Source: Cliona cf. orientalis (Eukaryota; Porifera; Demospongiae; Clionaida; Clionaidae). From it: DNA of 64,000 nt. Below the pieces are notes generated by a model. It did not search any database and was not told the origin of the DNA. It worked only from the letters and a program-made list of their open reading frames with translations. This document shows, in pieces, positions 5,493 to 37,033 of the stretch. Numbering within the stretch: position 1 is the first letter of the stretch; the number at the start of each line of letters is the position of its first letter. The translations under genes were made by a program, and so were the position numbers. The stretch lies in contig OZ005689.1 in the NCBI GenBank assembly GCA_963930775.1, positions 32,101,235 through 32,165,234 of the forward strand, read 5' to 3'.

Positions 5493-6663
5493 TAGTCTCG
5501 TGCCCAGCCCCCTTTCACGCACGCGGAGAGAAGGGGTCTGGCCAAACGTGTATACAGTGAGCTTCGTCTACGGCAATGAGCGTGAGCTTGAGCTTTACAT
5601 AGGCGTTCGTAAACACTTTCCTTCACTCAGCAGCTACTGCTGTTTCTGGCAACATGAAAACTTAAAACAAATTAAAGCGGTGATGATATAATAGTCATAA
5701 GGTATCTAACCAAATCGGAATTTTTCAGAAACAATATCGGCAATCTGACTTACTGTGACTGCGTGAGTAGCTGAAACGCCTATAGCTTTCAACTGACCAA
5801 TCTATACAACTAGAAATACTAAAATGGAAATAAAATCAACGAAAATGTACATACCTGCTGCTGTATCAAACCAACCAAAGGGCTGATAATAATAAGCCCA
5901 TGGCATCACAGCTAGTAGACAATGGCACAAGGAACATGCAGAGGGTCTTTCCTCTTCCAGTGGGCATACGCACGAACGTATCCCGACCATGGGCCACAGG
6001 AAGGAGAGCTTCAAGCTGACCGGGACGAAAACTTGCAAAACCATAGCAAGAGCGTAGGGTATCTGTCAACTTATTTTGAGCAGTACATGCATTGGACAAA
6101 CCACCACTTGTCCTAGTCTGGGGTACCAGCCCCTTTGCAAATGCTTGACACTGATCACTGCACAATACTTTGTAACTGGACATCTTGCAGCTGACAGGTG
6201 CAAATTTAAAAATTCAATTTCACCGCCAAAAACCTTCGATCATACCAGCTGATCAGGTACACACGTGATTTAGCCAGGCCCTCAAGCCAATGGACCACCA
6301 TAGCGCAAGCGCTACACAGTAGTAGTGCTCATTTTACCAAGTCTCATCATCACTGGACCTGTTATTTATATTATTAGTACTACATGTACTTACCTCGTTT
6401 TGAGCGAAGGACACGGGCCTTTGAGTCAATCATCCAGCACCGCCGAATTCCGCGATCTTCCCGGTAAATCCACACGCGGCAACATCCAGAGGTACGTGGG
6501 TGGCATCATTTGGAATGCATTTTTGTGGTTAGCGCTGTGCCGCCCCACCCACATTCAATGACGTTTCATGCGTGATATCGCGTACCAGGCGCTCCTCTCC
6601 TCCCGCTTTTTGCGTGCAACATTAAAAGGTGGGAGATCGAGAGGGGGCCTGGGGACGAGGCTA
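5493..6663. mobile_element. Element C: deleted relative of elements A and B
   Basis: The left end TAGTCTCGTGCCCAGCCCCC is followed by a complementary GGGGTCTGG (hairpin), the same end structure as element B. The right end, read on the minus strand, is TAGCCTCGTCCCCAGGCCCC, with CGCCTGG about 75 bp inside. Between them is the first part of a minus-strand RecQ-like helicase gene, and the rest of the body is missing. The 9-bp flanks differ (AGGTTAGCA and GGGATGTAT), so the copy is rearranged. The right end abuts the middle of a MITE copy at 6664. A further TAGTCTGGGGTACCAGCCCC end sits inside it at 6114. The two outer ends are similar but not identical in type, so C may be a mosaic of two related elements. 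Confidence 0.6.
5866..6183 (-). pseudogene. RecQ-like helicase, N-terminal fragment of element C
   Basis: The minus-strand frame contains a helicase motif 0 (SFRPGQLEALL) and a Walker A (RMPTGRGKT), in the same order and spacing as the first exon of the element A and B helicases. It stops soon after (DAMGLLLSALWLV). Motifs Ia to VI and the zinc domain are absent from the surrounding DNA. The N-terminal residues upstream of about 6113 overlap a TAGTCT-type transposon end, so the natural start is uncertain. This is a remnant of a transposon helicase rather than a host repair gene. Confidence 0.65.
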
Positions 6664-6790
6664 GGGATGTATAGTGGATGTGATACGTTATCCCTACAAA
6701 CCTTGTTTGTGTATTTTTTGGCACTGCCATCCCTACTTCGTCCTTCAATTTTATTCAATTGTTTTTTATACTTATTACTGTTCTTTTTTT
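6664..6790 (+). repeat. Half copy of the 430-bp long-TIR MITE family
   Basis: The sequence from GGGATGTATAGTGGATGTG to TTTTTTATACTTATTACTG matches the right arm of the full copies at 36187, 39645, 42989 and 60300. The left arm is missing, and element C's right end lies exactly at the break. Confidence 0.7.
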
Positions 6791-7854
6791 AGTGCCCTCA
6801 GGGTAGTTCATGCATGATAGTCATTAATTTTCATCAATGCTACCTAGCTGACTAATCTTGTGGGGACAGAGGCTGAGCATGAGACTACATAGACCATGGT
6901 GACCTCATATTATGGTTTGCCTATTCATTGTTATAAAAAGTATGGAACCAGCTACAATTACAAAAATTTTTTTAGACCTAGCTACATCCAACCATGCTCC
7001 AACAATAATACAATATTATAGGGAAGCAGGTACACCACTGATTCAGCATATTTGTGCGATCCTAGCCTTTGAGTCAGGCAGCTATTGTACCCCAAACACG
7101 CCATTTGTTCAGACTTAAATAAGTTCAAATCCCAGGCAGTCTTTTTATAACTATTGACGTCTTATTACACACTATTGAACACGCATCAGTGGGATTCTCG
7201 AGACAGCTCAAATAACCAGTGACCAGCGATTTGAAGCCACGCCCCTTGTTATCTCGATCCTGATGCGAGCTGGCTGATCGGCAAACTTGAAAGATTAGAA
7301 GGCTGTTTACAACCGAGTAGGAAGTTTCAGGAGCGTATTTTATAGGCCAGTAAGTTGACTATTGGTAGTGGCCACCATAATTGACAGTTCTCTGAGCTAC
7401 TACCGTAAGTGAATTAATACAAAGTACCTGCTATGCATTTTATCGGACTAAATTGGTGCTAGGATTTCGTGCAAATACTTCCATGCTTCCTCTTTTTTTT
7501 GTTCAAGGAGACCACACACTAAGCAGAACAAAATTTGTCCAGAAACCACGACATAATTGAGCTGGATGCTTAGTAGAGCCATACAATGCAAGCAGGCTGT
7601 CTATAGCGTAGTTTAATGGAGTTAAACGTAGTTAACAGCTGGAGTCGGCCACGTATGCCGCGCGGCAACAGCGCAAGCCTACCTGGGATATATGGAGCAT
7701 GCGCAGTAGCACAGAGAGCACATGCTAGACTGAAGCGACCAGAACATTTGGTAGCCACGTATCTCTGCTCTATCTTCATTTGTTGGTTTTGTCGACCCCA
7801 TCATTTTCGTGCCGTTGTCGCACTCAAAGTTTCCCTTGCTCCCGCTCCCTTCAC
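6791..7854. other. No gene; foldback-family terminal segment near 7167-7360
   Basis: The stretch ACACACTATTGAACACGCAT, then CAGTGGGAT near 7167, matches the terminal repeat of the foldback element at 41169-42534, including the following CCACGCCCC and AAACTTGAAAGA words. Sequence near 7412-7475 matches 30310-30370 (CTATGCATTTTAT, GTGCTAGGA, TTCGTGCAAATA). From about 7560 the sequence probably enters the left part of the DIRS fossil, but its true left end is not visible. Confidence 0.45.
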
Positions 7855-8965
7855 AATGAGCACAACACCGCCATTTACCCCAGAGCAACTAGCCTGGCTC
7901 CAGGGCTCGTTCAGCGATCGCGTGACTACCGCCACGCGCCGCCCCGCCCCGCCTCCAATATACTCGTACTCTGCGTTCACACACAGAAGATCGCGAGCAC
8001 GCATGCTAAACATCACAATTCTAACCACACCCCTGTGAAATTTAACACACCAACTTTGTGTATCGCGATCTGGGGCCTATGGATCTGCCTATCCTATGCT
8101 GCAACCCCCTTTGCATACCTAACACTAACATCAACTGCTCTGCAATCTCTTCGGCACACCTATATCACTCTAGGAGCACCCTGGCACACTACTCCGTGCC
8201 ACGCATCGGCACCGCCCCCACCGGCCGCACTCAATCAACCCACTTACGCACAAACTACTTGCTGTCCCTGTATTTTCCTCTTCACACTCCCCCCAACCCC
8301 CCCCCCCCCCCCATACAGGTCCCATCGTCACCACAGCATCATCATCACTCCCCAAGCTCCCCATTTTCTCCCCTTCGGTTGGGGGCACCTCGGGACTGAG
8401 CCTACTGGCTGCTGCTGCATCCACGGTATCATCTCCGGTTATCCCACCTCTGCCACCCCCCACTCCCACTGCGACTATCTCGGCCCCCGGGCCATTCAGT
8501 CCCACCGCCACGCTACCGTCAAAACTAATGAAATGCATCCTGGATTTAGAATTTATAGAGATGGCAGACATCACTACCGATGAGCTTCCATCCAATGAGC
8601 CGGGTTGCCCCCCAGTGCCAGCCCGCCTGCCTGTAACTAACATTTCACAATGGGTGGAGCGCTTCTCCTTAATGGCCGCCGTCCTCTGCACCCGGTTCCC
8701 CCTTAAAGCCCCTGAGCTGCTCGCCTACCAGGCAGCCATAGTCAGGGCAGAGCGTAACTATGAGGGTACTCAATGGGTATCATATGATCGCCGTTACCGC
8801 AGGGAAGCCCTTGCTCGCAAAGATCTCAACTGGTTGGTGCCAGACCCACGCCTCTACAACGAGGCATTTACGGGCGAGCCAAGAACATACAGCGCTGCTC
8901 ATTCTGCCTGCAAGACAACCATGACCAAAATACATGCCCCAGAAATCCCCACCGCCCTCTTATAG
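7855..8965 (+). pseudogene. DIRS gag-like region (fossil)
   Basis: The region opens with MSTTPPFTPEQLAWLQGSF, a start typical of ORF1 proteins of invertebrate DIRS-like elements. Near 8660-8875 it carries the conserved block FSLMAAVLCTRFP, APELLAYQAAIVRAERNYEG and LYNEAFTG, usually seen upstream of DIRS reverse transcriptases. The middle is Pro/His-rich and contains homopolymer C tracts. The region is degraded and is not expected to give a functional product. Confidence 0.65.
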
Positions 8966-9230: not shown

Positions 9231-9239
9231 CCTCCGATC
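9231..9239. repeat. 9-bp target duplication of element A, left copy
   Basis: CCTCCGATC lies immediately left of the TAGTCT terminus. The identical 9 bp occur at 23075-23083, just right of the other terminus. Confidence 0.92.
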
Positions 9240-9314
9240 TAGTCTATCGAGCTAGACCCTTCCTTGCGCTTGTATTGTACGCACGGGGGGAAGGGTCTAG
9301 CAAAGGTCACGTTT
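9240..9314 (+). repeat. Left terminal inverted repeat of element A
   Basis: The repeat is 75 bp, ending CAAAGGTCACGTTT, and contains a 12-bp inverted repeat (9252-9263 with 9289-9300) able to form a hairpin. It pairs with 16722-16781 joined to 23060-23074, with differences only in the GTACGCACGG / GTACGTGCGG stretch. Confidence 0.9.
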
Positions 9315-9884
9315 GGTATGCAATTAATCAATAACGCGGAAATGTTGAAGCCGTATTGTTGAGGCATTTTTGAACAGACCACGAACGCCCACACGTGGTC
9401 AAACACTACGCAACCACTAAGGCCTAAAGTTCGCCCACCCGTATACCTCGAACGCCTACACGTGGTCATGTAAACATGAAAGTATGGCTGCAGTATCAGA
9501 GCAGTGCACAGTTTGTGGGAGAGTTATCCTGCAAGCTTGTGACAAGTATAGACTAATAAAGGCACCCAAGAAACCTACAGATGCAAGAGAGCAAACAAAG
9601 GTTGGTGAAGCTTTATTGAAGGTGACTAAGAGCCCAGATGTTTTACAATTGATAAAAGAAGATAAATTAATCAGCTTTTATACTTGTACATATTTTACCA
9701 AGCATTCGTCTAAACCAGGTAACTTTCTATTTTAAACAGGTAGTAGTAGTCAACAATCCACATGTTTCCCGAGTTCTGCCTGATTCTATCAAAGAGATTG
9801 GAAAAGCACTATTGTACAGGAGTGACATTGTAGAAGCCATATTGAAGTGTGATGCAATTAAAGAAAAGCTGATTGCCAGGTTAA

Positions 9885-10899
9885 GGTACCATTTAATTGC
9901 GTGGGCGTGAGCGTCAGGAATGGCTAATTCAATTAGCGAATCGTGAAGGGGCGTGGCCGAAGAGGCCATACGAGTGCTTTTGGTCGAAGGTGGGCGTGTC
10001 CAGAATCGGCCAGGGATGATTATGCGCGTGTAATTAGCGACCGGAAGTGGCCCCTGAAGAAAAGGCCGGTAATTGCCCACATCAAAGCAAGATCAAAGCA
10101 TTCTTTCTTAACTATTAACCGCAACGACTTAAAAAAAAAAAAAAAAAAAAAAAAAAGCTTATTAGGCCTAATTAAGCATGTGGGCGTGTTCCTGGCACTG
10201 TGTGGAGTGTGTGCGTGTGCGTTAATGCAGGTTTTATTGCTTCCGATTGGGCGTGGCTTCACGGGCCAGTGCTTGGACATAGGCGCCTGGGACTTGGCCT
10301 CGGCGATAGGTGGGCGTGTCCCGGAAGCGGTGGTGACCTTTGAACCCCGCGAGGAGGCTTTGGGGGCGTGGCAGGAGGTCAAAGGTGAGGCCATGTCTGT
10401 TAATGAGGCACTGTACGGCGGTGCGATCGAGGGGCCTGTACGGCTGGACGGAAGCTGACGATGGTTTGAAGCGGATGTGGTTGCGATGACGTGTTGTTAC
10501 TCCGCCCACACAGGAAATGAGGTGAGCTCTTGCGTGGGCGGTGTGGCAGAACGGCCTCCAAGTGTTTGTGTGTGTTTTGGCCTTGAGGAAGCTGTGTGTT
10601 TTAATTGGGATTGATTGTGGGCTTCCGGTGGACATCCGGTGGTTAGTAGGCACTTGATTGAGAATGGTGGTCCTTGGGGAACAGGGTGGGGCTGTTTTGG
10701 GCGTGGCCTGGCCCCTCCCTTCCGGCTCGGCTTCCGGTCCATGGAGGATATTAAATGAACACTTCCGGCTCTAGCAGCCACACCCCTGAGACCTGTGCAA
10801 TTAAAAGGGCGTGGTTACACAACATGCACCTCACTAATGACTTTGATGTGGTTTAGGTGTCATATCCCCCACCTCACGCCCACGCAATTTAATGGTACC
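9885..10899. mobile_element. Element D: 1,015-bp TTAA-duplicating DNA element in an exon of A
   Basis: The TIRs begin GGTACCATTTAATTGCGTGG (left) and GGTACCATTAAATTGCGTGG (right, complement), then GCGTGAG. The flanks are TTAA at 9881-9884 and 10900-10903. With D and one TTAA set aside, the transposase frame runs straight through (KLIARL then MTLLSEECKH). The interior has many GGGCGTG words and an A-run at 10131-10156, but no transposase, so D is non-autonomous. TTAA targets are used by piggyBac and Kolobok; the GGTACC ends do not by themselves decide between them. Confidence 0.85.
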
Positions 10900-12128
10900 T
10901 TAATGACTCTATTAAGTGAGGAGTGTAAACACTTGTGTAGCATAAAGTTTAACTCAATGTTAAGGAAATGTAATCCACAACAACTGCTTGACTTCAGTGT
11001 GGAGAGCATTATGTCAGAGTGGCAGCAAGATGCTCCCTTGCTTCATCGATTCCTAATTGCTGTAGCATCATCGACTGGTACACCAACTACTGATCAGATA
11101 CCACCAATTTGTATGGCTGGCTGTGTCCTGTTGAGAGCAAGAAATATCCACATGTCTGCTTTCCAACATATTGTTGGCCTACTGCTATTTCACGGAAATT
11201 CAACTAAGCAGGTAGCTATGCTATTAATAGAAATTTGTGTATGCTTAATGGTATTATGGTTGCATGATCTTCATCAACAAAAATTGTTAAGTACGCTGGC
11301 CATTAATTTTTTTTTGTTTGTCCACAAAATTTAATGCTGTAGACAGTGGTGAGGATGAACAAGCTACAGGTTTGTGTATCTGCAGAAGCCACACTTCAGA
11401 AAGTAGATGAGTGTGCACAGGGGCATGACAAAAAGGTCAAGCAGTGGATTGCATCACAAGTGGAATATCTCAACAGTAAGTGTGTACATGTACATGTACA
11501 TTAATTTTGTACAAGAGCTATGATAGTGATTAACACCCACACACTTAATTCTTGCTGCAGCTATAGAAGAGGGCACCACTCAGTCACAGCATCATGCGGC
11601 ACTTGAGCAACCAACTACCATTGATCAATGTGATATTCAGGCATGCGACGACACTGCATCACCAAAAGTACATGTACCTGTCACAAAGCCTTTGCCTCTT
11701 CCACCAACTGTCCAGATTATTGGAGACAACGTTGACATACGGCAAAAACCAAGTCACCAGACACTTGAAAGACGTGGCAAAGACCATCACTTGTTCCATA
11801 TGGTGGCAGTTAAGGATAGGGTTGTTGTCGGAGACATCTCAGTTACTCAACCATCCGCAATGGTGAAAGATCTCGAGTTGCACACTTTTCTCCCAACGAT
11901 TGATGATTGTATCAAACTAAATAATGAGTTCATTTTTCTCATTGCAAGAGTACTGACCGATCGTCTGGCTGCGTGGAAGTGTCTACAAGATTGTGTTCCT
12001 ACCCAAATTCCTCACAAGGTTTCCAGGGAGATGGCTATGAAATCAGAAATAGTATGTGCAGTACAATATCATGTCAAATATAAGCCATATTAATTGAAGG
12101 TGTTTACGTGTTAATTAGGTACCCTGTG

Positions 12129-12592
12129 CAGGGGCGTAACTAGCCTTTTTGGAGACAGGAGGCACTGCTGTACTTTAACTGTGGCCGAAGGCCACAGCAA
12201 GCTAGGGGGGTCTGGGGGCATGCCCCCCCCCCCCAGAAAAATTTTTAATTTTAGACCCTCTGAGAAAGATTCTGACGCACTTTCTGGCACATTAATTTTA
12301 GTTTCAATACTTTAAAATTTGCAATGTCCAAGTACAATTATTTATTTACCATTCTTGTGCAACTTCCGAAAATACCTGGTGATAGGGCGACTCCCACTCC
12401 TCTTTGCTGCCATCACAACTTAGAATCTGTCAACTTGTCACACATGTACACTGGCTCCTTTCAGCACGTGTTAACGCTGTAAGGATCACGGTACGGTAAG
12501 GATCGCTATAATTATAGGTAATGCAAATGATCGTCAGGCAGAAAAGTGAGGAGGCACTTGCCTCCGTTGCCTCTATGGTAGTTACGCCCCTG
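12129..12592. mobile_element. hAT-like MITE (464 bp) in an exon of A
   Basis: The ends are CAGGGGCGTAACTAG and TAGTTACGCCCCTG. The flanks are a 5-bp duplication CTGTG (12124-12128, 12593-12597). Taking it out restores the codons VPCGVITK, which align with VPLGVIPK in element B. CAGGGGCGTAAC ends are hAT-like, and 5-bp duplications are known for the hAT5 group. It has no coding capacity. A GTGGCCGAAGGCCAC palindrome and a C-run lie inside. Confidence 0.85.
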
Positions 12593-14129
12593 CTGTGGAG
12601 TGATAACGAAGTCAGAACAGGAGACAGAAGGCATGGTAGACATGGATCATATCCAGAGATATGTGCCGGTAACAAGCAGTGGTAATATCCATCCTCTACT
12701 TTTTGGTGGGGATCAGCTCACTAGGGAGAGAGCTTACAATGCTAAGGATGCAAAGCTTCAATCAGCAGATCCTTTAAAGAAACTTCAGGGAATAGTTCCA
12801 AAAATCGAAGATTGGCATGCCCGATTCACATTTTATCAGGTACAGCTAATAGAATAATTATGTAACTTAAATACTGCAAAGTACATGTCAATGTCATATA
12901 TTTTCTCTCCCTCCCCCTCTTTCTCTCTCCCTTTCTAATCCACCCCCTCTCTCTAATGCACTCATACGAATAATCAAGGTGATTTTTAATCAGTTGTACA
13001 GCAAGGAATCAGAAGGCGAAAAAGGAACTCTGAAACAAGTTCAGACGGCAATCAACCGCACCAACATTCCTACAAAGGTGAAAGATGATCCAATGGCTGT
13101 AGAAGATTTTATGGACCTCGTACTTGATGCTCATATAATAGCAGCTGCTATCGATTTTTTTGGAATGACGACTGTGACGTCGAGACCCACAGCTAACATA
13201 GATCTCAGCAAAATCAAAAAGATGTCCAAACATGATAAATGGAGATCATTGTCACTTGCTATTCAGCATTTTTTAGATCATTACACTCTTCACGGGGAAG
13301 CTGATCACCTTGCTTCAACTGTTAAAGCACTTACCACAGAACCAGCAAAGAAGAGAAAAAAGGATGACAAATCAAAAATGGAAACAAAGAAGGAAAGGAA
13401 AAAGAAGCAGAATCAATCCGAAGATGGCGTCTATAATTATGCATGCCATCTTATGGGAATGAATCTAATGGCTAGAAATTTTCATGATGCTTCCCGCTGG
13501 AATGATGGAGAAAGAACTATCTGCTGTTGGAAATTTCTCCTCCTGCATTTCAAAGCAGATGGCAGAGTCAAGTACTCAGTAGAAGCATTCCATCTTCTAG
13601 CACAGGTTAATGCATTGCTTCCTCCCCACATGGCTCATCAGCTAACCTGAAACAGAGCATGTAATGTCAGTGGGGGAGAAGGTAAGAATATTCCCCTGGA
13701 CTTGATGGTTGAGCATTACAATCGAGTATTCAAGGATGACATAAACACGTTTAGATCCAACATTGGAGAGAAAAGCATAAGCAGGAGCTCACAAGCTATC
13801 GGCATAATGAAAGAGCTGTTGGAAAGATTTGATAGCATCATCAAGATCAAGAAGCCTAGTGGACGACATATCAAACCTAGTGAACAAAAAGATTTTGAAG
13901 TGATTGTAAAGATCCTTGTCAATGAAGGAGTGTTCAGGAAGGAGTTGGGTCGAGGGCATAAGAGCTTTGTCAATATTTCTTCAGATCCGTTTGCATCACT
14001 AAAGTCGAACCCTAAGCCACTTTTTGTATGGCTGAAGCATCGTTTGGAAGTCGAATCTACAGAGCAAGACTTAAATATGAATCTTTTATGAGCACTCAAA
14101 GTTACAATAAATATTAATTTTGTAAATAA

Positions 14130-16550
14130 TTAATCATCAAAAACATCATCAATTATTTGCATAATTTTTCCAGCTAGGTGCCAAATACCACATAATTCTT
14201 CTGTTTCAGAAGCCGAGTGAATACTCTTACAATTATGTACAATAGTGTCTATTGTTTGCAGAGGTAATCCACATGCAATATCATCTCCAACATACAAGGA
14301 AGTACAGCGTGCTGGTAACAAACAGGATCGTAATTCCAGTAGTCTTGATCTTAATGTATGTATTTTTACGTCTGTCACATCACGGTCTGGCACAGGTGAA
14401 CATTCATCTTCATCAGAAGTTGCACCATACTCTATTGGGACTGCATGTTTTTGCTCCTGTCCACATTCACATTTTTTAGTGCATAAATCACAACATGCAT
14501 GAGGGGGGCTGATTTGCTTGTGTGCACTCTCCCCAGGAAAATGCTTTAGAAGCTCTTCTCGGCGACACTTTCCCTCCTCCAGTGTACAGTATACTTTCAT
14601 ACTTTTGTCGACATGACCAAGGAGACTCCCTGGATACACATATGTGACCGGATCTGAGAAAACCCGGCATATTCTCAAAACGCGCATATGGCGCAATGCG
14701 CGTTTTTAGTATCAACAGTCAAAAAATATCAATGTCCAGTTTTTGTCATATTTATGTCAAAGAACCTTTCTACTAACTGTTGCCACCGCCTACGGAGGGT
14801 AAATGTAAGTTACCAAGGCGAAATAAGCCTTCATTTTGACCTACCTAGTTAGTACGGCTGCCGTACACGGAGCCCGTTGCTATGGGCGGTAATTAGAATT
14901 CTCTACCTAGATACAGCTAGATTCATCGAACTACTGTATGTTCGCTCACCTTTTTAGTTTCTTGGGCATCTAAGAACAATCGGCTGTCGTTGTCAACAAC
15001 GAAATTCAACTCTTGCTCGATCTTTACGTTCATTTCGAACGGCTCCGCCCAGGTCCATTTAATTGATTTCCGGGTCACGCGTAGTATGCGGAAACGCCAT
15101 ACGCGTGCATAGCAACGCCTTTGGACCGTAATTTCTCGATTATTGAGGGTGTGGCGCGATCGCAAACGAAGCGCTCTAGCTCCACAGCCAAGCGCGCGAT
15201 GGGTCTCAGACTTGGAGGCAGGTTAGCCCTATGATACAGCAATCCAAATATATAGCTAACTAAAATTTCAAGGATTGATGAATATGGCGGGTTTTCTCAG
15301 ATCCGGTCACATATAATAGTGCTATCGACTCTTTGCCGTCCCTTCCAGCACGACCGCTCTCCTGAAAATAGCTTTCAATATCACTGCAAGGTCCATAGTG
15401 GATAATGGTCCGCACATCAGGTATGTCTACCCCCATTCCAAAAGCTATAGTAGAAAAAAGGATACGACATGTACCATCAGTAGGTTGAAATACAGCTAGT
15501 ATTTCCTTTTTATCATCTTCATCAACACGAGCATGGTACATAGCAAACAGACGACTAGGTATTGACGGAGATGCTCCCTTTGGTTCATAGCTGTCACTTC
15601 TTAGTGAAGTTAGAAATTGTTTATATAGCTTGACACAGGCGGCAATTGATCGACAGAAGACAATTGTTTTGGCCAAATTCTTTCTTTCCTTCTGTAGCTT
15701 TGCTATAAGCCATTTAAAGGGTATCGTAACGTCACGCACATGTATCCTCACCACAGAATAGCAGATATTAGGTCGATCAGGACTGATTGCAATCACAAAT
15801 GGGTCATCAAGACGAAGACTATGTGAGATCAATGCTTTTGTTGTACTTGTTGCTGTTGCAGTCAACGCAAGAACTGGAGTATTGGTAGGTACAAATGATT
15901 TCAGCTGGGCAATGTTGGCATACACTGTACGAACTGGTCACCCCTGGAAAACAAACAAACTATAGTTAATTTTTGTTGGGTGGGCAATATTTAGGTAGAC
16001 TATTATGATGCATACTTAAAACACTGACTTACCACTTCACAATGCAATGAGCCTCATCCACTACTATAGCCAAGATATTGTTAACAAAATTATCATTTTC
16101 AAGTAGCAGCTTTCTCCACCTAGAACATATAAGAGCTTCTGGACTAGTAAACATATGAGTGATTTTTGACAGAGTTTCAGGATGAGCAATAAACTCGTTT
16201 GACAGCTGGACAGCTGTAGTGATGCCAACCTTTCGAAGTTTGGAGACTTGGTCAGTCATAAGCGATACGAGGGGCGACACAACTATTACACAAGGTAGAC
16301 AGGTTGGGCTGGCACCAGAGAGCTGCTCAAGGATAATCGAAGCGCACAGAGGTAGCGAGTGAAAGATGGCCGACTTTCCAAACCCGGTAGGCACCGTTAC
16401 AAAACAGTCGCGTCCGAGCAACACGCATCGAACTGCCTCTCTCTGCTCTCCCTTGACGGACGAATGACCCAGCTTTCCAAAAGCATCATCGATGGCTTTG
16501 TCGATCTCATCCATTTTGGTTCTTGCGCTCCATTTTAGATGAAGCGCCAT
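14130..16550 (-). pseudogene. Element A RecQ-like helicase, interrupted
   Basis: Exon 1 (16033-16550) has VKGEQREAV (motif 0), VPTGFGKS (Walker A), VVSPLVSLMTDQ (Ia) and DEAHC (II). After a roughly 89-bp intron, the second exon (15943 down to 15312, then 14642 to 14130) has ALTATAT (III), AKTIVFCRS (IV), STIAFGMGVDIPDVRTIIHY (V), QESGRAGRDG (VI) and a RecQ-type zinc domain (YCTLEEGKCRREELL, then HACCDLCTKKCECG). Element E splits this exon just after motif VI. With E and one TA set aside, the frame is open across the join. One base appears missing near 15930 (GDQF, then YANIAQ in another frame). The gene lacks the exon 1/2 intron of B's copy. It is expected to unwind DNA during transposition rather than to act in host repair (inference). 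Confidence 0.85.
14643..15311. mobile_element. Element E: 669-bp TA-duplicating element in the helicase exon of A
   Basis: The TIRs start TGTGACCGGATCTGAGAAAA and continue CCCG, flanked by TA (14641-14642, 15312-15313), suggesting a Tc1/mariner-type MITE. A second, inverted copy lies at about 55040-55678, sharing GCATATT, TTTTTGTCATATT, GTCAAAGAACC and CGCCTACGGAGG words. It has no intact gene; an 80-codon open stretch (14923-15165) is of unknown meaning. Confidence 0.8.
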
Positions 16551-16721
16551 GCCAAACAGCGTTCAACGTCGAACTAGATCGAGAGCGGCTCGGTCGATGT
16601 GCTAGCGACCGCAAACGTCCACTCACGGTATACCGGTATGCGCTAACTTCCTCTCGCCCACGCGTAGATTGCTATCCAGAATTTGGATAGTTGAATCTGA
16701 TTGGTCAGCTGAAATTCAATT

Positions 16722-16781
16722 AAACGTGACCTTTGCTAGACCCTTCCCCCCGCACGTACAATACAAGCGCAAGGAAGGGTC
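16722..16781 (-). repeat. Right terminal inverted repeat of element A, inner 60 bp
   Basis: This is the complement of the left TIR of A, from CGTGACCTTTGC outward. It ends in GGAAGGGTC, which is also the 9-bp target copied on insertion of B. The remaining 15 bp lie at 23060-23074. Confidence 0.9.
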
Positions 16782-16844
16782 TAGTCTCGTGCCCAGACCC
16801 CACCCCAAAAAGGGGGAAAGGGGTCTGGTCACGATCCTTGGGCC
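16782..16844 (+). repeat. Left terminal inverted repeat of element B
   Basis: The repeat is 63 bp ending CACGATCCTTGGGCC. It matches 22976-23050 in inverse orientation, except that the right copy has 12 extra bases (GAATATTATGGA region). The hairpin loop is ACCCCAAAAAGGGGGAAA. Confidence 0.9.
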
Positions 16845-16982
16845 ATTACGTCATGTAGTGTGTACTTAACTATGTATGGAATGTAATTAGTTAGTCAGCT
16901 GGCCGGCTGGTGTGACGTGGATGGGCGCACGCGGCAGGTGGAATTATTGAAATTAACCACGATATTGCTAAGGTTGTGCCAC

Positions 16983-19900
16983 ATGGCCGATATGGCTTAC
17001 CACTCTTGCTTGGTATGTTGTGAGCATACAGCTCCTAAAGGCCGGGTGGTATTTTGGCCGTTATCAGAAAAGAATAGCCGTGCTCATACGTTTTTTTGTA
17101 ACTTCATCAACGGATCTTATTACTTTTCTGGGACTGATCCGTTATACGTTTATAAGCAGCCTTGTTTCACAAAACTGCAGCAGGCATCGGATAAGCTGGA
17201 GTGCGTAATGTCCATTATTTCTGACCTAAAAGAAAAGAATGGACGAGTCGGAGACGTGGCAGCCATACCGGCATCTCTGGGCTGCTATGTTCAGTCTGTG
17301 ACAACTCCGACGTCATCTGTTCCAGCGAAGAGAGCAGCCACTGGAAGTGTGCCCAGAGCTAAGAAATTGCTCAGATTGGAGGTAAATGATATTAGCGACA
17401 AATTATTAGTGATGATCACTATTATTGTGCATACGCTATGATCTTGATAATATTTATAATTTATACAGCATGCTGGCTCTGCTAGCAGCATCCCACAAAC
17501 CCCTCCAAGTCAACTTAAGACGGTTGGTTTTTTTTTTTTTTTTATATTGTTGTCAGTCTACAATGCTATCATATCTGGTTTTATACAGGATGCTCAAGCC
17601 CGCACTACTGTGCCTGAAACACCACCGAGTGCAATGAAGGTTTGTTAATGAAATAGCATTCATCTAAAAAAAGTAATAGACACTGGTTTATGCTTGTATA
17701 ACAGGTTCGAGCTGATATTACTACGATTCCCGAAACGCCCCCAAGTGAAGTGAAGGTAAAATAATTATTATGACCATCCTGTACGTCTGAGTGACATCAT
17801 TAATTTTGTGCTTTCACATGCAGGTTATACATACAAAGGGGAAACGTGTGTGCACATTCTTGGTCCATACACCATATAAAAAGGTCGTGAAGTCACTGCG
17901 CTACAAGAATCCCTCCTACACAGCGCGAAGTATGCTTCGTGTACCACTACTAAAGCAATCAACTCTAGCTGAAGTGACGAAGGTATGTACATGATACAGT
18001 GGGTATTCAATTTTAGATCTGATTGTTTTGATATAGGTTGTGAGAGCTGAGTGTTCATTGCTATGCACGAAGAAGCCAGCATCATCCTTATTTCGTATAA
18101 CGACTATTTGAGTTCAAGTGGCACAATTTATGCGCTGAGTTGAAAAGGAGAGCTCCCACATTGTATGCCATACTGGAGGCTGCTTCGCGACGTTCACGAT
18201 CGAAAACGTCATCACTTATTGGAGTAGTAATGGCTGCAGGACTTTTATTGAAGCACAGAAATCAACAGATGGGTCTCCTCCAGACCATTGTCTCCATTAT
18301 TTTATACATCCAAAAAAGTGAGTATGATATATATACTGTGAATATATGCTCATGTGATTGTGCATGTAGGATTCTATGATACCCTTGGAAATCATAATAT
18401 TATAGCCTTTGTATTATTAATCTTTAGGTATACTTTCGGTTGCACAAGTTGGGTATTTGTGTGTCACACAAGTCAACTACTGTGGTAGTTAAGAAGCTTG
18501 GCGAAAAGCATGACCAGAAAGTACTCGACTGGGTGGCGGGTAAAGCAGTTGATTCCGGTTTTACTCTGGATTCTCAGCTCGTACCTCCTTGTTACATCCT
18601 TCAAGGAGACAACTATGACACAACTGTGCATGCTCGAGATATGCGTATGGACAATCAGAACAAGTCTTTGCACTACTTCAACACATATGCAGTAAAGGAC
18701 AGGCCTGACTTTTACATGCTGGATTCTGACCATAGCGCAACTTCAAAAGATATTAGAAGTGCTGCGATATCAACCTTTTTGCCTACCATGGAGGACTGCA
18801 AGAAAGTCCGAGATAACTACGTTGTTCTTGTGGCAAGAGTCCTAGTTGACCACTTGACATTTCTTCACCCCCTAAAGAAGTGTGTACCATGCCATGTGGA
18901 GCACAAGTATTCCAGTGAAATGAGCAAGAAATCTGAAATAGTAAGTATTAATTCAATTTGCAGATCACAGATAACATGTAAAAGATTATTACTAGGGTTA
19001 TTGGGGTCACCTTGTGTACTGTATTTGACCTCTTGTTTGTACTAGTACAGTTCACTCTACTAGCACAGTGGTGTATGCTGATACTATTACCATGATGTTA
19101 ATTGATAGGTGCCACTGGGAGTCATCCCCAAGAATGAGAATAACCGTGAAGAAATCGTAGAAATCTTGGAGATAATGCACAAATATGTACCGAAGGATGA
19201 TGACAAACTAATAAAAGTGAGTTTATTTTTATTAGCTAATATTCTGCCGTGTGCATACCCTGTTAGCATGATTGTGTATGCATATTATTCTTACAGTTAT
19301 TATAGAACCATCATTGATAGTAATGTTATTAGGTTGCTCTAGGAGGTGATCAGCTGACTGTGGAGAGAATACGTAATGCTCAGCTCAGCCGTGTCAATTC
19401 AGAGGATTCCTCCAGTGCTCTTCAGGGTTTATTACCATTTGCGTCTGACTGGCATGCAGAAGTAAACTTCATGCAGGTACATATGTAACTTGTAAGTCAT
19501 GCATGTCCTACTGCTAATTCACCTCGACCCATTCTTGTTCAATTATAGATAATTTTTGATCGACTGTACTCCACTCGCTCCAACTGTGATGCTGGTACTC
19601 TGGTTCAGCTACGCAACCTCATTAACCGGCGTAATGTAGCAAAGGATATTAGCGGGCGATTCAATGAATCAATTAATTTTTTTGAGCTTGTAAACTGCCA
19701 CATTATTGCTGCTGGAATGCACTTTTTTGGTTTGAATACCATGGCTGATCAGCCTAGGTACAATTCATTTCCCATGCATCAAAAATCAACCGAGTCTCAG
19801 TGGAAAGCCTTGTCTACTGTACTAGGTAAGCTGGTGGACAGATATGTCATTGTCCAACGCTTTCAAGAGTTACAACCCCATCACCCAATTTCAGTGCCAA

Positions 19901-20790
19901 AGTCGGTGGCCCATGAGATTTATAACAATCCACATGCCATTAGAATCCGTAGAGAGCACTTATATTGTGCCCAGATCTCTACTATAGTTGCCTCAGAACA
20001 CTGTTATGTTAAATCAGCAGATCCTAATCAGCCACAAAGTACTAAACATCGTAAGTTACCACAGTACCTGTGCACATCTATGGATGTCCCTCATGCTGCC
20101 ACATCAGTTTGCGAGAATGTGCCCGATGGTGTATTGATTATGCTTGCAGTGTTCTCAATGATGGTCTCCTACTCTTGGAATTTCGAGATGCCATTCACTA
20201 TGGATTTGGGCCCAGAATGTGCTGCTGGAAGTTCCTGTTGATTTATTTCAGGCATGCTAAGCATTACAAGTATGCTTTTGAAGCTTTTAATTTGCTCGCT
20301 CAAGTTCATGTTTTGGCTTCACCACGTGTCCAACACCAACTAACCTGGAGCCGGGTTGTGAATACGAGAGGTGGTGCAGGCAAGAATGTGCCTGTTGACT
20401 TGCACAATGAACACCTAAATAGAAAGCTAAAGGATGTTGTGAGTGGAATTGGAGCTAATGTAACCAAGGAATTAATAGTGGAAGCCAGCAAATCTTTGAA
20501 TGCTGTCGATACCATGTGAACATTTCGACACCATAACAGGCATCAGACCAGAGTCCATTCACCATACAAAGAAAAGTTCCGAACAAGACCTGATAACGAT
20601 TGTGAAACAGCTCTCTGAATCACAAGTATTTTCATATACCCCAGGCCGTAAACATAAGGCATTCCCAAATATTTAACCCAATTTGGTTCGAAGTGTGGAT
20701 GCGAAAGCCCTTTTTGAATGGATACATCAAAAACAAACACAATTAGCAAACAGAATTGATTTTAAAAAACTATTTAGAAGAGAAAATTAA
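16983..20790 (+). pseudogene. Element B DUF6589-type transposase-like gene, ten exons
   Basis: Exons: 16983-17381, 17469-17522, 17589-17639, 17705-17755, 17824-17982, 18037-18317, 18428-18940, 19109-19216, 19333-19476, 19549-20790, all with GT/AG borders and phase 0. Exon 1 has a Cys-rich zinc-binding-like start (HSCLVCCEH, then FFCNF). Exons 2-4 are micro-exons repeating a TxPxTPPS motif. Later exons share GDNYDTTVHARD, YAVKDR, STFLPTMEDC, VALGGDQLTVERI and HQLTWSRVVNTRGG, then AGKNVPVDLHNEHLNR with element A. The Asp/Asp/Glu in GDN, GGDQ and EHLNR are candidate catalytic residues. Defects: exon 6 is one base short (281 nt, near 18108), there is a pair of compensating frame changes near 20132 and 20515, and a TAA at 20674-20676. 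It is therefore probably inactive, although splicing signals look good. About 540-870 residues is normal for such transposases. Confidence 0.8.
17469..17755 (+). other. Three tandem micro-exons encoding TPPS repeats (within element B gene)
   Basis: Exons of 54, 51 and 51 nt encode SSIPQTPPSQLK, TTVPETPPSAMK and TTIPETPPSEVK, each bounded by AG/GT in phase 0. The repeated peptide is consistent with exon duplication. S/T-P-rich linkers are often phosphorylation or docking sites; no function is assigned here. Element A has no counterpart, and its exon 1/2 junction lies just where these would be. Confidence 0.7.
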
Positions 20791-22805
20791 TTTTTTTTGT
20801 ATACAATACACATTGAACAATGAAACTACTCTTTTCTGTGATACTGTTAATCTTAATATTGGGGAAGCATGCTCAGGAGGTACTCCTAACTGAATAAGGT
20901 CCGTCTCAGAATGTACTTGGTGGGCTATGGAGGATATTGTGTCAATAACATAATCAGTCAGCCCTGTAGCAATATCAAGCCCAACCATTTGTGCAGCATT
21001 TGGATCACAGAATTCCTCACTAAGTTTAAGTCTATACTGTAACAAGCTCTCTTTAATAGCTGAATCGGTCTTCCTCTTAGAAGTGGCAGGTTTAGCTCCT
21101 AATAGTTCGTGCTTCACATCATCCAATTCAAATTCAGTAAGCGACTCCAATCCCAACAAAGTATTTGAACATTGTGAGCAGGTGCAGGAAGCAGAACGGA
21201 TGTCACAACACATATGAAGTGGTGTTGGTTTGTTGATGCTCTTTGATGTATCAAATGAAGACATTAACAAGGCTCGGCGACAAACAGTGGTGTTTTTACA
21301 ATAAGCCTTCATTTCCTCTAGTGCATGGCGAAGCTTGCCATTATTAACATACAGTACAGCAATGGATGGTTTCCCATCTCTTCCTCCTCGGCCACTCTCC
21401 TGTATGTACATCTCTATATCATCCGGAGGAGACCAGTGAATGATCCTTCTAACATCTGGGGCATCCAAGCCCATAGCAAAGGCTACTGTAGCAAATATAA
21501 GTCTTACATTGCCATCAACTTGGGTGAATGAACTGAGAATGTTTTGCCGCACCTCTAATGATGTACACGCATCATATTTGTCGCATGTACGAAAGAGAGA
21601 CTGTTTCCCAGGTTGTGGTGTGCCAAAAAATAAAGAACCTCTCTCATTTAACTTAAGCACTGTATATTCATACATTTGAAGTAGCGTGTCATAAGATCGA
21701 CAGAATACAATGGTGCGCTTAGACTTTGCTCCATACTTGCATATCTCATCAATAAGTGGATCAAGAACCTCATATGGTGTTGATGGCATAGGTAGCAATG
21801 AATAGCATATATTCAGATTATTTGGAATCTTTGATACGATCTTGCAATCTTCCATTTCTAAACTTTTCTTGATTTTATTTTGCGTCGAAAGATTTGCCGT
21901 GGCAGTCAAAGCCATTATATTTGTATTGGGTGGCATGAGAGCTCGAATCTCACCAATACGAGAAAATTCTTGTCTAAACTGAGCACCCCTATAAATGAAA
22001 ATGCATATAAAGTCACTAATATACAGGTGCGTGCACACATGCAAAGTATAGTATATAATGTGAAAGAGGAAGGCAAATGCACTCATATGTGTATGTTACT
22101 CACATACACGCACACATACACACCATGTCGTCATATGCACATTGCACACACACACATACATACATGTACACAAACACATGCATATACACACACAGGGACT
22201 CACCACTTTTCGACACAATGTGCCTCATCAATAGCCAAGCAAACAAGGTTGTGCTGATAAACATCAGAACGAAACATTTCCCTAAACCTGAGGTTTGTCA
22301 GCATAGATTCTGGGCTTATGTATACCAGAGAGTAGTGGCCTTTGATAACTTCGCCAATAATCGATTGATCACGTTGATCTCTTCCAACAAATGCAGCTGA
22401 TACTCCTCGAGCTCCATAAGATTTTACCTACATAACAACATATAGGGCACTATTACATAAATTTGCTATAATATTCATCTTCACCAGGGCACTAGTACAA
22501 ACATCCCAACACACCTGATCCTGCATAAGTGAACTGAGAGGCGACACAACAACTATAGACCCTTGCTGATCGACATCACCCCGAAGAACATCAAATAAAA
22601 CCGGAAGGCATGCATAGCACAGGGATTTCCCACTCCCAGTAGGAAGAGAAACAAAGACATCGACCCCTTCTACAAATGATCTTATGGCATCTCTTTGATC
22701 TTCGGTGGGCCTATCATATCCAAGTGTACGGACAGCCTGAAGAATGGCCGAGTTCACTTGATGCAAAGGAAAGTCCCTCTTCAATCTCTTTACGCGCACT
22801 AGCAT
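20770..22805 (-). CDS. Element B RecQ-like helicase, three exons, apparently intact
   Basis: Exons 22515-22805, 22204-22427 and 20770-21988 (291, 224 and 1,219 nt) join in phase to give 577 residues and a stop. Motifs in order: EDQRDAI (0), LPTGSGKS (Walker A), VVSPLSSLMQDQ (Ia), DEAHC (II, followed by a split Trp codon), ALTATA (III), RTIVFCRS (IV), FATVAFAMGLDAPDVRRIIH (V), QESGRGGRDG (VI). A RecQ-type zinc domain follows (YCKNTTVCRRALL, then HMCCDIRSASCTCSQC). No HRDC domain is seen. The intron at 21989-22203 has a CA-rich microsatellite (about 22095-22195). The gene ends 21 bp inside the transposase gene's 3' end. It is unlike a host RecQ in context, being bounded by transposon TIRs. The proposed role is DNA unwinding in transposition (inference). 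Confidence 0.88.
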
Positions 22806-22975
22806 CGCTGTGGAGAGAGGATAGCAGCAACTTAACTAGCGTACTAGCACATCATAGGTACTAGGTACTAGGTACCCGGGCCCGGGTACAAAAGTGCAAC
22901 AAGTGCGCGGCGTGCGCTGGAATGCTGTTATTACCCTAGCTGCAATCTGATTGGAACGTTCAAATTCCTTTCCCC

Positions 22976-23050
22976 GGCCCAAGGATCGTGTCCATAATAT
23001 TCACCAGACCCCTTTCCCCCTTTTTGGGGTGGGGTCTGGGCACGAGACTA
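22976..23050 (-). repeat. Right terminal inverted repeat of element B
   Basis: This is the complement of the left TIR, with a 12-bp length difference after the hairpin. It is followed directly by GGAAGGGTC (23051-23059) and the last 15 bp of element A. Confidence 0.9.
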
Positions 23051-23074
23051 GGAAGGGTCTAGCTCGATAGACTA

Positions 23075-23083
23075 CCTCCGATC
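23075..23083. repeat. 9-bp target duplication of element A, right copy
   Basis: CCTCCGATC, identical to 9231-9239. DIRS fossil sequence resumes after it. Confidence 0.92.
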
Positions 23084-23089: not shown

Positions 23090-24480
23090 CCAACCGCTAC
23101 CCCTATTAACTGACCCCATATTAGTCTGCTGTTATCACTTACTCATAACGTTGCTTTCCAATCATGCTGTCCTCAATCCATGATCTGTGTATTTATTCAC
23201 ATGCTGATTAATACAGGCAAGATAATTATAGAGGGATAAATTAACGACTGGGGGGAATGGATAGTAGGGATACATAATAATATAACAGTTAAGTAAGCTC
23301 TCCACCTTCGGGTGTGACGGCCACTTCTCTCTGTCTCACAGGCTGGTCCCAGCTTTATGAATACACATCTGATTTGCTGTGCATTGACTTTTGCAGACCG
23401 CCTCACCCTCACACACATCAACTGTTGTATCAGGTCTCAATACCCCTCTGTCTAGACGCATGGGCAGCTGCCCTTGCCTCGCATCCCGATCGAGCCTTTG
23501 CTCGTTCTATCTGCAACGTTCTCAGGTTTGGATTTCGTATCGGTTTTCAGTAGGGTCACCTATTAAAATCTGCTACCTCTAATATGCCCTCAGCGCGATA
23601 CAACACCCAATGGTAGTAACAAACTACCTCCACGAAGAACTATCCCGTGGGAGAATGCTAGGCCCCTTCCACTCACTACATGGCCTTGTACTCCCCTCCA
23701 CATAAATAGATTTGGGGTCATCCCCAAAGGCATAACACGGGAAAATGGAGACTGATAACAGACCTCTCCTTCCCGCATGGTAGGAGCATCAATGATGGCA
23801 TTGACCGAGATTTATGCTCACTCTCCTACACTACACTACTGTAGACAACATAGCAGCTGTGCTGGCCCAGCTCGGTCGGGGAGTAGATATTGAGTCAGCA
23901 TACAGATTCAGCCACATGATCGCCCACTCCAAGCCGTCCAATGGGATGGCGCAGTCTATGTTGATCCCATGCTCCCATTCGGTCTCTGGTCGGCACCCAA
24001 AATCTTCAATGCAGTCGCAGACGCTTTGCACTGGCACCTACAGCAATCAGGAATCCCCTAGATATTCCACTACCTAGATGACTTCATTATTGCTGGCGCC
24101 CCACACTCTCCTCAATGTGCTCACTCATCAGCGATTCTTGACTAGGTTCCACTCTGTGCATTCCCATGGCTGCCCACTAGCGGGAGGGCTCCGCCACCTG
24201 CCTGATCATTCTGGGCATTGAGATCAATACGCAGACAGGCGAGCTGCGTCTCCCAGCAGACAACCTCAAGCGCTTACGCGCATTGTTACATCAATGGGGC
24301 AACAAAGCAGCCTGCTCCCGCCAGAAGCTCGAATCCCTTATCAGCCTCCTTGACTACGCATGCAAGGTAGTCAGGTCAGGCATATCCTTTCTATGTCGCA
24401 TGATTGATTTGCTGCATGCGGTGCCATCATCACAGCCAATAATTCGCCTCAACTGTGGCTTCTGCTCTGACCTGGCCTGG
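23090..24480 (+). pseudogene. DIRS reverse transcriptase/RNase H region (fossil)
   Basis: The recognisable blocks are FGVIPKG near 23710, LPFGLWSAPKIFNAVADAL near 23970-24025, and a following Leu-rich RNase H-like stretch with LNCGFCSDLAW at about 24455. These are typical of DIRS-like reverse transcriptases. The region is heavily degraded, with multiple breaks, and no intact product is expected. Confidence 0.65.
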
Positions 24481-25200
24481 TGATCCACGTTTATCAATCA
24501 ATGGAATGGCGTCTCCTTCCTCCCCCCTTCATCTTCCCTCCCCAGTCTGGAAATCACGTCCGACGTGTCGGGCTCATGGGGGTGTGCTGTGTGGCATGCA
24601 GATATCACTTGGCCTTCCAGATCCAAGGGATCAATCGTCTCTCCCCATTCTGAAAAGAGTACAGGCAGATATTAGCCGGGCCAGAGTAATGAGAGGTTCA
24701 CCACCTCGTATACGCCTTCCGATCACAGTTAGAATACTCGAGGCGATACAGCAGTCGCTTGCTAGGTCATCTAATCCGGATAGTGTGGTGCTCTGGGCAG
24801 TTTCAGCAACTGCATTTTTCGATTTTTTCCGCCTGGGTGAACTTTTACTAGACTCACCGGCTCACTTTACGCCTGCTACTAAGTTGGCATGGGGGGATGT
24901 ATCCGTCGATAGTCACATCGATCCCAAGATGATTCAACTCCACTTGAAGATCTCTAAATGTGATCAAATGGGTGCAGGATCTGATATAGTCGTTGGTCGG
25001 GTGGACTCTCCCCTCTGTCCTGTCACAGCCATCCTAAAGTATATAGAGACTCGAGGCGATAGGCCATATTATCACCAATGATCAGTTCTGTATGCGATGT
25101 AAGTGAGATATGCATGCATGCACATATCACACCTGGGAGTTACATGCAGGGGTGCTCACGTGACCAGCGGTTGCACGTACGCCGGCCTGGCTTCCGCCAA
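24481..25200 (+). pseudogene. DIRS tyrosine recombinase region (fossil)
   Basis: The open portion contains RLPITVRILEAIQQSLA and AVSATAFFDFFRLGELLL, which match the core-binding and first catalytic Arg region of DIRS tyrosine recombinases (FxRxGEL pattern). The sequence KISKCDQMGAGSDIVVGR and LCPVTAILKYIE follow, as usual in the family. The C-terminal catalytic part is only weakly visible near 25150-25200. The region is broken. Confidence 0.65.
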
Positions 25201-28235: not shown

Positions 28236-29480
28236 AATACATTCCAATTAAATATCCAATTAAGGTTCTTAGTTGATTAAAAAAAGTGCGTGGGTGGATA
28301 TTTACCAAATTCAACGGAAAATATACCTTTTAGATCGTCTCACCTAGCTTGTTAACAACACCGCACTCCCATCTTCTGCAAGTCCAGTAGAAGAGATTTT
28401 CGGAGGTTAGGGTCGTCACTTTAAGTATTGTAGCCGCACTGCGCGCGCGGCACCTTCATGCACGTGCGCATGCGCAGTTGTGACGCTAGCGCTAGCCCCG
28501 CACTTTAACTACAAATAACTATTAATAACCAAATGGGCGGAGTTAACGGTTATACATAGGAATCCAGGTTTGCGCACGCGCAATTGCGCAAATGGCCTGG
28601 GTCAAAGTACATGGTCAACGCACATGCTGGAGGCAGAGCAGTAAGTTACCTTAGCTTAGTACGATAATTTCAGAACGTGAGACTATGTGCCAAGGTACTA
28701 AGATGGTAGTCTAGCGGGCCATCCCATCGCACGGGATGGGCTGGCCCGCTAGACTAACAAGAACCCTTTGGTAGCCTGGTCAGAGAACTGAAATTATGTC
28801 GGCTGTTAGACGTCGTGTAGTCACGGGGGGGGGGGGGGGGGGGGGGTGGGATTACACCACAGGGGTAGGCAGCTAGTGGGGGTTGGTGACCCACTCCTTG
28901 GTGCTGAGCTATACAATGTACACCAAGCCTGAGATTTGAAAGTAATTTATTGACACTGATGATTATTTCAATTTATTGCTGATACACAGTACCAAGGGGT
29001 GGTCACCATTTTATGTGCAGCCGGTACTCCCACCTACAGTGGAGATCAAGGATTTTTGTTGGCGCTTGATTGTTCCCTTGAAGCATTCCGTACTGTATTT
29101 CGAAAAGATCAGGGAACCTGGGGATGAGGCCAGCGTTTCTAGTACAGTGTGTATGTTGCTTTCTTCTTTAGCAAACCAACACAATTAATGTATGGACACA
29201 CATGATCTGTGACGTTCCTTCCATTCAGATATAGTGTACTGATGTCTGTGAAATTGCCGTAGCAGATAGAAGTGCAGGGCTCATTATGGTGAATACCCTT
29301 CTACTCAGTTGCTTGAGGCAAGCGATCACTCAAATAGAGTCTTTGCACTTACCTTGTGTGTTGATTGCTCATAAGGCCATACCTATTTTTAGTTTATATT
29401 TCTTGGATCTGGCAAGTCATATTTAAAAAAAAGGGTTTGGTCCAGTGACAGTAAGAGGCAAACGATACTTGGCATAGTGA
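28236..29480 (+). repeat. Dispersed repeat unit R1, copy 1
   Basis: This stretch parallels 32190-33345 in order: AAAAAGTGCGTGG, CATCTTCTGCAAGTC, CACTGCGCGCGCG, GGCCTGGGTCAAAGTAC, the TAGTCT hairpin, GATCTGTGACGTTCCTTCCA and GAATACCCTTCTACTCAGTT. A run of about 20 G lies at 28826-28846. The unit has no coding content. Parts recur inverted at 62135-62310 and 63767-64000. Confidence 0.7.
28707..28756. repeat. 50-nt hairpin with TAGTCT/AGACTA ends
   Basis: TAGTCTAGCGGGCC pairs with GGCCCGCTAGACTA, and CATCCC with GGGATG, around a short loop. The terminal hexamers equal those of elements A and B. Similar complete hairpins lie at 62135-62184 and 63767-63814. Confidence 0.8.
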
Positions 29481-36186: not shown

Positions 36187-36625
36187 ACAAGTATAAAAAA
36201 CAATTGAATAACATTGAAGGATGAAGTAGGGATGGCAGTGCCAAAAAGTACACAAACAAGATTTGTGGAGATAATCACATCCACTATACATCCCTATGCT
36301 CACTTTTTTCTCGATTATCATGCTTCTGTTGATATAGATTCCCATACTGTAACAGAGAGGCGGGTATACTTTTGCTTCAGCATGTTAGTGCTATCCTTCG
36401 AGTCTTGACTCTATGCATGTGGGAGAAATTCCTTTTATTATTAATATTATGACTCTGATAGTCAGTTGATTGTTGCATTAATCCTGCGCCCCATATAGCA
36501 AATAAAAAGCAAGCATAGGGATGTATAGTGGATGTGGTTATCCCCACAAATCTTGTTCGTGTACTTTTTGGCCCTGCCATCCCTACTTCATCCTTCAATT
36601 TTATTCAATCACTTTTTATACTTGT
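36187..36625. repeat. Long-TIR MITE, copy 1 (about 430-bp family)
   Basis: The left arm (ACAAGTATAAAAAACAATTG to ACTATACATCCCTATGCT) and the right arm are inverse copies of about 120 bp. Other copies lie at 39645, 42989 and 60300, with a half copy at 6664. Confidence 0.8.
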
Positions 36626-37033
36626 TACTGTTCCTTTTTAGTGCCCTCTGGGCAAAGCCGGCAATCTGCAATGGCATGGTTTGCCCATTCAATTTTCAAC
36701 TTCATTGTGAATAGTTGAATCTACATTATCTGTGTTTTCATTTTGTGTCAGTATATCCAATGAATATTGTATTAATTTATGTGTGTGAGCCTGTGCGTGT
36801 GTATAATATTTTATTAATATTGTTCATGGATACAGCTTCAAAAGGTCGGCCTAAGTGTACACATGCAAGTCATGAAGATTAATCTTCGATTTCAGGTTAC
36901 CAGACGAGGACCCCGGAACGTTTTTGTAATGTATTACATATAATATGGCATATCTGGGCCATCCCTACTCATAGTCTACCGACTTAGATGCTGTGTAGAA
37001 TGCTTAGTTTAAATCCATGTCCGTATGTACATG
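36626..37033. other. No gene recognised
   Basis: The sequence just right of the MITE (CCCTCTGGGCAAAGCCGGCA) is shared with the other copies, so the true repeat unit extends beyond the inverted arms. Confidence 0.45.

Follow-up and report, generated by a model that had tools for sequence, protein, structure and literature searches.

The 64,000-nucleotide stretch of the Cliona cf. orientalis genome analyzed here (assembly GCA_963930775.1, contig OZ005689.1, positions 32,101,235 to 32,165,234; hereafter the window) contains two DNA transposons, abbreviated as A and B, of which the second is nested within the first and each of which carries a gene for a DUF6589 protein together with one for a RecQ-like helicase. 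The results support the conclusion that A and B are real transposons of one lineage. We consider it very probable that the DUF6589 protein is their transposase, joining the element to its target with a stagger of 9 base pairs (bp) and assisted by the helicase. Compared by description, A and B most likely represent new families within the AcademH lineage, which is already described, rather than a new kind of transposon. Their boundaries, for which no strand is assigned, are as follows (positions refer to the window):

9240..23074, element A, which B interrupts; length without B about 7.56 kb
9231..9239, target duplication (9 bp) on the left side of A, CCTCCGATC
23075..23083, target duplication (9 bp) on the right side of A, CCTCCGATC
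16782..23050, element B, 6269 bp
16773..16781, target duplication (9 bp) on the left side of B, GGAAGGGTC, inside the terminal hairpin arm of A
23051..23059, target duplication (9 bp) on the right side of B, GGAAGGGTC

Both duplications are perfect over 9 bp, CCTCCGATC in the case of A and GGAAGGGTC in that of B, and the exact coordinates thus bear out the perfect duplication that an initial annotation of this DNA had assigned to each element. The target of B was the hairpin arm of A's right terminal repeat; after B come its right duplication and then the outermost 15 bp of A. The sequence duplicated around B belongs to the terminal repeat of A, which identifies B as a discrete insertion; the location of B within A's right terminal repeat indicates that A inserted first and B later. 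Across the whole window, an exact flanking repeat of at least 5 bp was found at two of the 187 pairs of TAGTCT..AGACTA, namely A and B (9 bp in both), and at none of the other 185. When identity was scored over 9 flanking positions in 190 pairs of the window, A and B gave 9/9, two further pairs reached 7/9, and none of the others exceeded 6/9.

The terminal repeats of the two elements share a common design:

9240..9314, forward strand, terminal inverted repeat at the left of A, with TAGTCT and hairpin; over its 75 bp it has 2 mismatches against the right repeat
16722..16781, reverse strand, inner portion of the right terminal inverted repeat of A, the outer 15 bp lying elsewhere
23060..23074, reverse strand, outermost 15 bp of the right terminal repeat of A
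16782..16844, forward strand, terminal repeat at the left of B, with TAGTCT and hairpin
22976..23050, reverse strand, right terminal repeat of B, 12 nucleotides (nt) longer than the left one, after the hairpin

The 75-bp match between the repeats of A was computed with B set aside. Those of B match over 48 bp without mismatch, then differ by the 12 extra nt on the right and match again over 15 nt, a last stretch that extends to 19 nt at 95% identity in another alignment. In both elements TAGTCT is followed by five more bases and then by a hairpin, the arms of which contain YAGACCC and GGGTCTRG, and, judging from the sequence, the GTCT of the tip can also pair with AGAC at the start of the hairpin. 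Folding of these ends as single-stranded DNA was stronger than that of shuffled sequences for the left 75 nt of A (z -4.5, none of 200 shuffles as good), the right inner 60 nt of A, taken alone (z -3.7, 0/200), the left 63 nt of B (z -3.2, 3/200) and the right 75 nt of B (z -2.3, 4/200). Repeat alignment and folding therefore agree with the initial annotation, which had described terminal repeats starting with TAGTCT and containing an internal hairpin.

Also as initially annotated, both elements encode the same two genes tail to tail, the DUF6589 protein on the forward strand and the helicase on the reverse strand, and profile searches now place both proteins in their families. The first gene occupies the left part of each element:

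9484..14088, forward strand, DUF6589 gene of element A; from the A/B protein alignment and by eye, with PF20231 on two pieces
16983..20760, forward strand, DUF6589 gene of element B; from the A/B protein alignment and PF20231

The exon pieces of the gene in A are 9484-9714, 9740-9883, 10900-11211, 11346-11474, 11560-12051, 12594-12839 and 12979-14088. In B they are 16983-17381, 17469-17519, 17589-17639, 17705-17755, 17824-17982 and 18037-18316 (pieces 1 to 6), followed by 18428-18940, 19109-19216, 19333-19476, 19549-20133 and 20154-20516 (pieces 7 to 11), with remnants up to 20760. These limits derive from the A/B alignment and the splice-site consensus judged by eye, not from transcripts; the consensus was displayed for five exons of B, one of which (17469-17519) lacks a GT donor. 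The apparent presence of introns in the DUF6589 genes of both A and B indicates that the elements are eukaryotic. Three successive exons of B, each of 51 nt (17469-17519, 17589-17639 and 17705-17755), encode similar peptides ending in TPPSxxK.

The Pfam profile PF20231 (DUF6589) matches two pieces of A with 54 and 37.8 bits (E values of 1.5e-14 and 1.2e-9) and one piece of B with 76.7 bits (2e-21), against a cut-off of 27 bits. The match reaches 7.6e-45 with the exon-joined core of B and is found also with that of A. Other pieces of the genes, including the GDN exons and 19549-20238 of B, gave no Pfam match up to an E value of 0.1, and four N-terminal pieces gave none above the cut-off. The DUF6589 proteins of A and B have 31% identity over 861 alignment columns, a divergence which places the elements in two families. 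Over 810 aligned codons from both genes, the differences between A and B amount to 0.52, 0.40 and 0.68 at the first, second and third codon position, respectively; being greatest at third positions, they imply selection on both proteins during the divergence of the families.

The helicase genes lie on the opposite strand:

14130..16562, reverse strand, RecQ-like helicase gene of element A, in pieces 16562-16029, 15937-15263 and 14705-14133; from Pfam and motifs
20773..22835, reverse strand, RecQ-like helicase gene of element B, in pieces 22835-22428, about 22427-22207 and 22095-20773; from Pfam, the Protein Data Bank (PDB) and motifs

In A the helicase matches PF00270 (DEAD; 2.5e-17) and PF00271 (helicase C; 9.5e-18), and in B it matches PF00271 above the cut-off (6.3e-15); the scan with PF00270 covered A, the corresponding piece of B lying outside it. 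The RecQ zinc-binding family PF16124 falls below its cut-off of 25 bits in both, with 20.1 bits in A (0.0011) and 24.9 bits in B (3.5e-5). Walker A, DEAH and QESGRxGRDG are common to the two proteins, in the form of GFGKS, DEAH and QESGRAGRDG in A and of GSGKS, DEAH and QESGRGGRDG in B, and the closest PDB match of the B helicase is RecQ (4tmu, 9.9e-22), followed by BLM. The helicase pieces of A and B are 29% identical over 582 columns. One piece of the B helicase also matches 24 phage records, all below 60% identity (among the five listed, two are annotated as RecQ and three are unannotated), matches which say nothing beyond the family to which it belongs.

Direct observation of A and B provides their ends, hairpin-forming sequence, duplications, order of nesting, gene content and protein-level constraint. 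Duplications of a fixed length, like terminal repeats, are typical of DDE transposases, and it is from the ends and duplications of A and B, together with such general knowledge, that we infer cut-and-paste transposition by a DDE enzyme. The DUF6589 transposase would recognize the terminal repeats, presumably through the TAGTCT tip and the hairpin with its YAGACCC and GGGTCTRG arms, excise the element and join it to the target with a 9-bp stagger, the repair of which would leave the 9-bp duplication. The RecQ-type helicase, encoded on the opposite strand, would probably open or resolve DNA at the ends or during gap repair. By this route B would have entered the right end of A after A's own insertion. 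The acids that may catalyze these reactions lie in three motifs, the role of which is putative in each case:

11722..11730, forward strand, GDN, candidate first catalytic D of A
12705..12716, forward strand, GGDQ, candidate second catalytic D of A
13711..13725, forward strand, EHYNR, candidate catalytic E of A
18605..18613, forward strand, GDN, candidate first catalytic D of B
19342..19353, forward strand, GGDQ, candidate second catalytic D of B
20409..20423, forward strand, EHLNR, candidate catalytic E of B

GDN, GGDQ and EHxNR are identical between A and B. Leaving out residues at the breaks, their spacings are about 147 and 286 residues for A and, for B, about 151 and 322, a pattern that would be compatible with a DDE enzyme in which a large insertion precedes the E.

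Several observations weigh against this reading of the DUF6589 protein, of its 9-bp joining or of the lineage to which the elements are assigned. Many other acidic positions are equally invariant between the two sequences, which weakens the candidate triad, and GDN lies N-terminal to the Pfam match (residues 9-11 of the B construct, with the match starting at residue 64). Two structure models, each covering part of the protein, are too poor to use: that of the exon with the first D, built with two sequences, has a pLDDT of 29, and that of the region starting at the insertion domain and extending beyond the E, built with three, has one of 38. The latter is almost entirely helical, with the E motif within a predicted helix, and is too weak to count. 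The tips of the two elements diverge after TAGTCT, agreeing at 7 of their first 11 bases. The window holds one copy per family with ends and duplications, and no other end in it with TAGTCT and a hairpin has a perfect 9-bp duplication. The placement in AcademH draws on duplication length and helicase content as described in the literature. Finally, searches of viral, Genome Taxonomy Database (GTDB) and plasmid collections found no relatives, and the argument is carried by two sequences. Protein pattern scans matched 3, 80 and 29 stretches in IMG/VR and 161 and 46 in GTDB genomes, none confirmed as a relative, and tblastn of one exon piece (121 amino acids) against plasmids gave no match. PF20231 had no match in one viral record and 14 control genomes, a set that is uninformative, and a PDB profile search with the exon-joined cores found no match up to an E value of 10. 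A DNA pattern for GGDQLTxER matched four viral contigs, which were rejected as relatives after inspection of their listed ORFs by eye: the motif lies there in phage-like or uncharacterized frames or off-frame, and no DUF6589 protein was seen.

The status of the catalytic residues as mere candidates, the position of the proposed first D outside the Pfam match and the poor structure models would suit an alternative in which the DUF6589 protein is accessory, for instance a DNA-binding protein, movement being driven by the helicase or by a factor supplied in trans. We regard this as unlikely, given that no sizeable protein other than the helicase and the DUF6589 protein was found in both elements and that their fixed-length duplications and terminal repeats are of the kind generally associated with DDE transposases. 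Moreover, no nuclease family exceeded the Pfam cut-off in the helicase pieces scanned, or more generally in 14 pieces of A and B and the two cores, a scan that left out some short pieces and the N-terminal piece of the B helicase.

A second alternative would place A and B in a superfamily such as MuDR, having captured a helicase. MuDR transposons possess duplications of 8-9 bp and long terminal repeats, features that A and B share. Against this, Pfam lists DUF6589 alone for the exon-joined cores at E values up to 10 (a range in which HMMER filters drop most matches above about 0.1), with no MULE or other named transposase, and we consider such an origin very unlikely.

The preferred assignment, to AcademH, relies on the features published for this and other groups. 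The AcademH lineage of the Academ superfamily was reportedly described by Kojima in 2020 (Mob DNA 11:15), in a paper the title of which is said to report it from animals and fungi. According to the passages of PMC10045372 (2023) that concern these elements, AcademH encodes a helicase and produces duplications of 9 or 10 bp, AcademX produces duplications of 3 or 4 bp, and the length is linked to the helicase or nuclease present. A and B thus resemble AcademH in having a helicase beside the transposase and duplications of 9 bp, and differ in duplication length from AcademX, the lineage paired with a nuclease, which would belong to the same superfamily if the Academ assignment holds. The RecQ type of the helicase is likewise mentioned for Academ in the relevant part of PMC3627910 (2013), and B, at 6.3 kb, is close in size to curated bivalve Academ elements, for which the corresponding part of PMC10294476 gives a mean length of 5565 bp. 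On the features tested, A and B agree with AcademH, and their duplications do not have the lengths given for AcademX and Kolobok. The initial proposal of new families in the AcademH lineage consequently stands as regards duplication length and helicase content (PMC10045372 and PMC3627910, as excerpted), at the level of description. Both transposase candidates match PF20231 above the cut-off, a Pfam entry to which no function is assigned; the term DUF6589 was not found in the literature searched, and its link with AcademH may be in print elsewhere, while the word Academ was not found in PMC8277862. An affiliation with KolobokH, which like a rhodophyte Kolobok (Kolobok-1_CCri, where it is on the complementary strand) encodes a RecQ helicase on a DNA transposon, is extremely unlikely, since the sections of PMC9587614 on these elements give TTAA duplications and RR..YY ends, in contrast to A and B, where the duplications are 9 bp long and unrelated in sequence and the ends are TA..TA, and Pfam lists DUF6589 alone for the exon-joined cores.

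The initial annotation had called for a survey of further copies with TAGTCT ends and 9-bp duplications; within the window the end signature does recur, and the 9-bp length is confined to A and B. A scan for TAGTCT with up to one mismatch plus a stem gave 15 matches, eight of them with exact TAGTCT, versus 1, 0 and 0 in three first-order Markov control sequences; the count includes the palindromes at 28707 and 63767 on both strands and misses 31094, 62135 and the right end of A, which B interrupts. At least five of these matches (14670, 31359, 46145, 50961 and 58432), each with one mismatch, are apparently unrelated to these transposons. One of the related ends belongs to a third element:

5493..6663, no strand assigned, element C, its right limit tentative and placed by eye

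Element C is probably an internal-deletion relic of a third related family. Its left end has TAGTCT and a hairpin, with the first 20 nt matching the end of B at 19/20, and helicase-like stretches within 6042-5542 on the reverse strand run into it. Two further ends of this type, together called D, face inward at 31094 and 33034, about 1.9 kb apart, with no DUF6589 or helicase match between them. For the left end of C and both ends of D, the flanking 9-mers were sought with up to 2 mismatches in defined stretches; of the 3, 4 and 21 near matches obtained, none was judged to lie next to a plausible partner end, and no duplication was recovered. A stretch of 27 nt at 6114-6140, in the frame upstream of the helicase motifs of C, is 96% identical to 33034-33008 in the terminal hairpin of D.

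The window also contains palindromes of 48-50 bp bounded by TAGTCT..AGACTA at 28707-28756, 62135-62184 and 63767-63814, as well as a degenerate one near 32622-32661; one of the palindromes has TAGCCT instead of TAGTCT. They are located in complete or partial copies of a single repeat family that spans about 340 bp or more and are possibly minimal hairpin elements. A duplication around 62135-62184, with 7/9 flanking bases matching, was discounted after one unrelated pair scored equally. We offer as a tentative proposal, on balance doubtful, that DUF6589 forms the core of the AcademH transposase, that TAGTCT plus the GTCT..AGAC..GTCT hairpin is a fixed device which the helicase helps to open, and that the palindromes are minimal mobile derivatives of two ends.

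Both elements are dead copies. The DUF6589 gene of A has an in-frame stop at 13648-13650, that of B is broken by frameshifts and stops, and A carries three insertions besides B, two in its DUF6589 gene and one in its helicase gene. The first (9885-10899) has a TTAA duplication and GG..CC ends, like Kolobok as described in part of PMC9587614, where TTAA duplications and RR..YY ends are given for the group. The second (12129-12592), apparently within a DUF6589 exon, is a small inverted-repeat element beginning with CAGGGGCGTAAC and has a CTGTG duplication, and the third, also with inverted repeats (about 14644-15310), splits the helicase gene; a stretch at 55616-55681 is similar to the translation of the latter. 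These three insertions, the introns and the gene breakage are additions to the initial annotation.

Among neighboring repeats, A is apparently inserted in retroelement-like sequence (8174-8962 and 23293-25081) with gag-like and tyrosine-recombinase-like frames, named by eye, five reading frames of which gave no Pfam match above the cut-off. A family of about 460 bp with inverted repeats longer than 100 bp is present at 36189-36652, 39647-40109, 42961-43417 and 60299-60756, and a half copy of it (6662-6803) adjoins the right end tentatively assigned to element C. A remnant of a hAT-like transposase, with Dimer_Tnp_hAT and DUF4371, lies at 1192-3046 on the reverse strand.

The nesting of B in A, the decay of both and the third relic C are new with respect to the initial annotation, and the gain is modest given that the elements are dead and their lineage is already described. 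Their value lies in tying a Pfam family without known function to complete transposons whose boundaries, ends and duplications are defined, and in providing two diverged families in which catalytic residues can be sought. The helicase may set the long duplication of AcademH with respect to that of AcademX, as suggested in the pertinent passages of PMC10045372, and elements with clear ends such as these offer a place to test why transposons carry a RecQ helicase and whether the length of the duplication follows from it.

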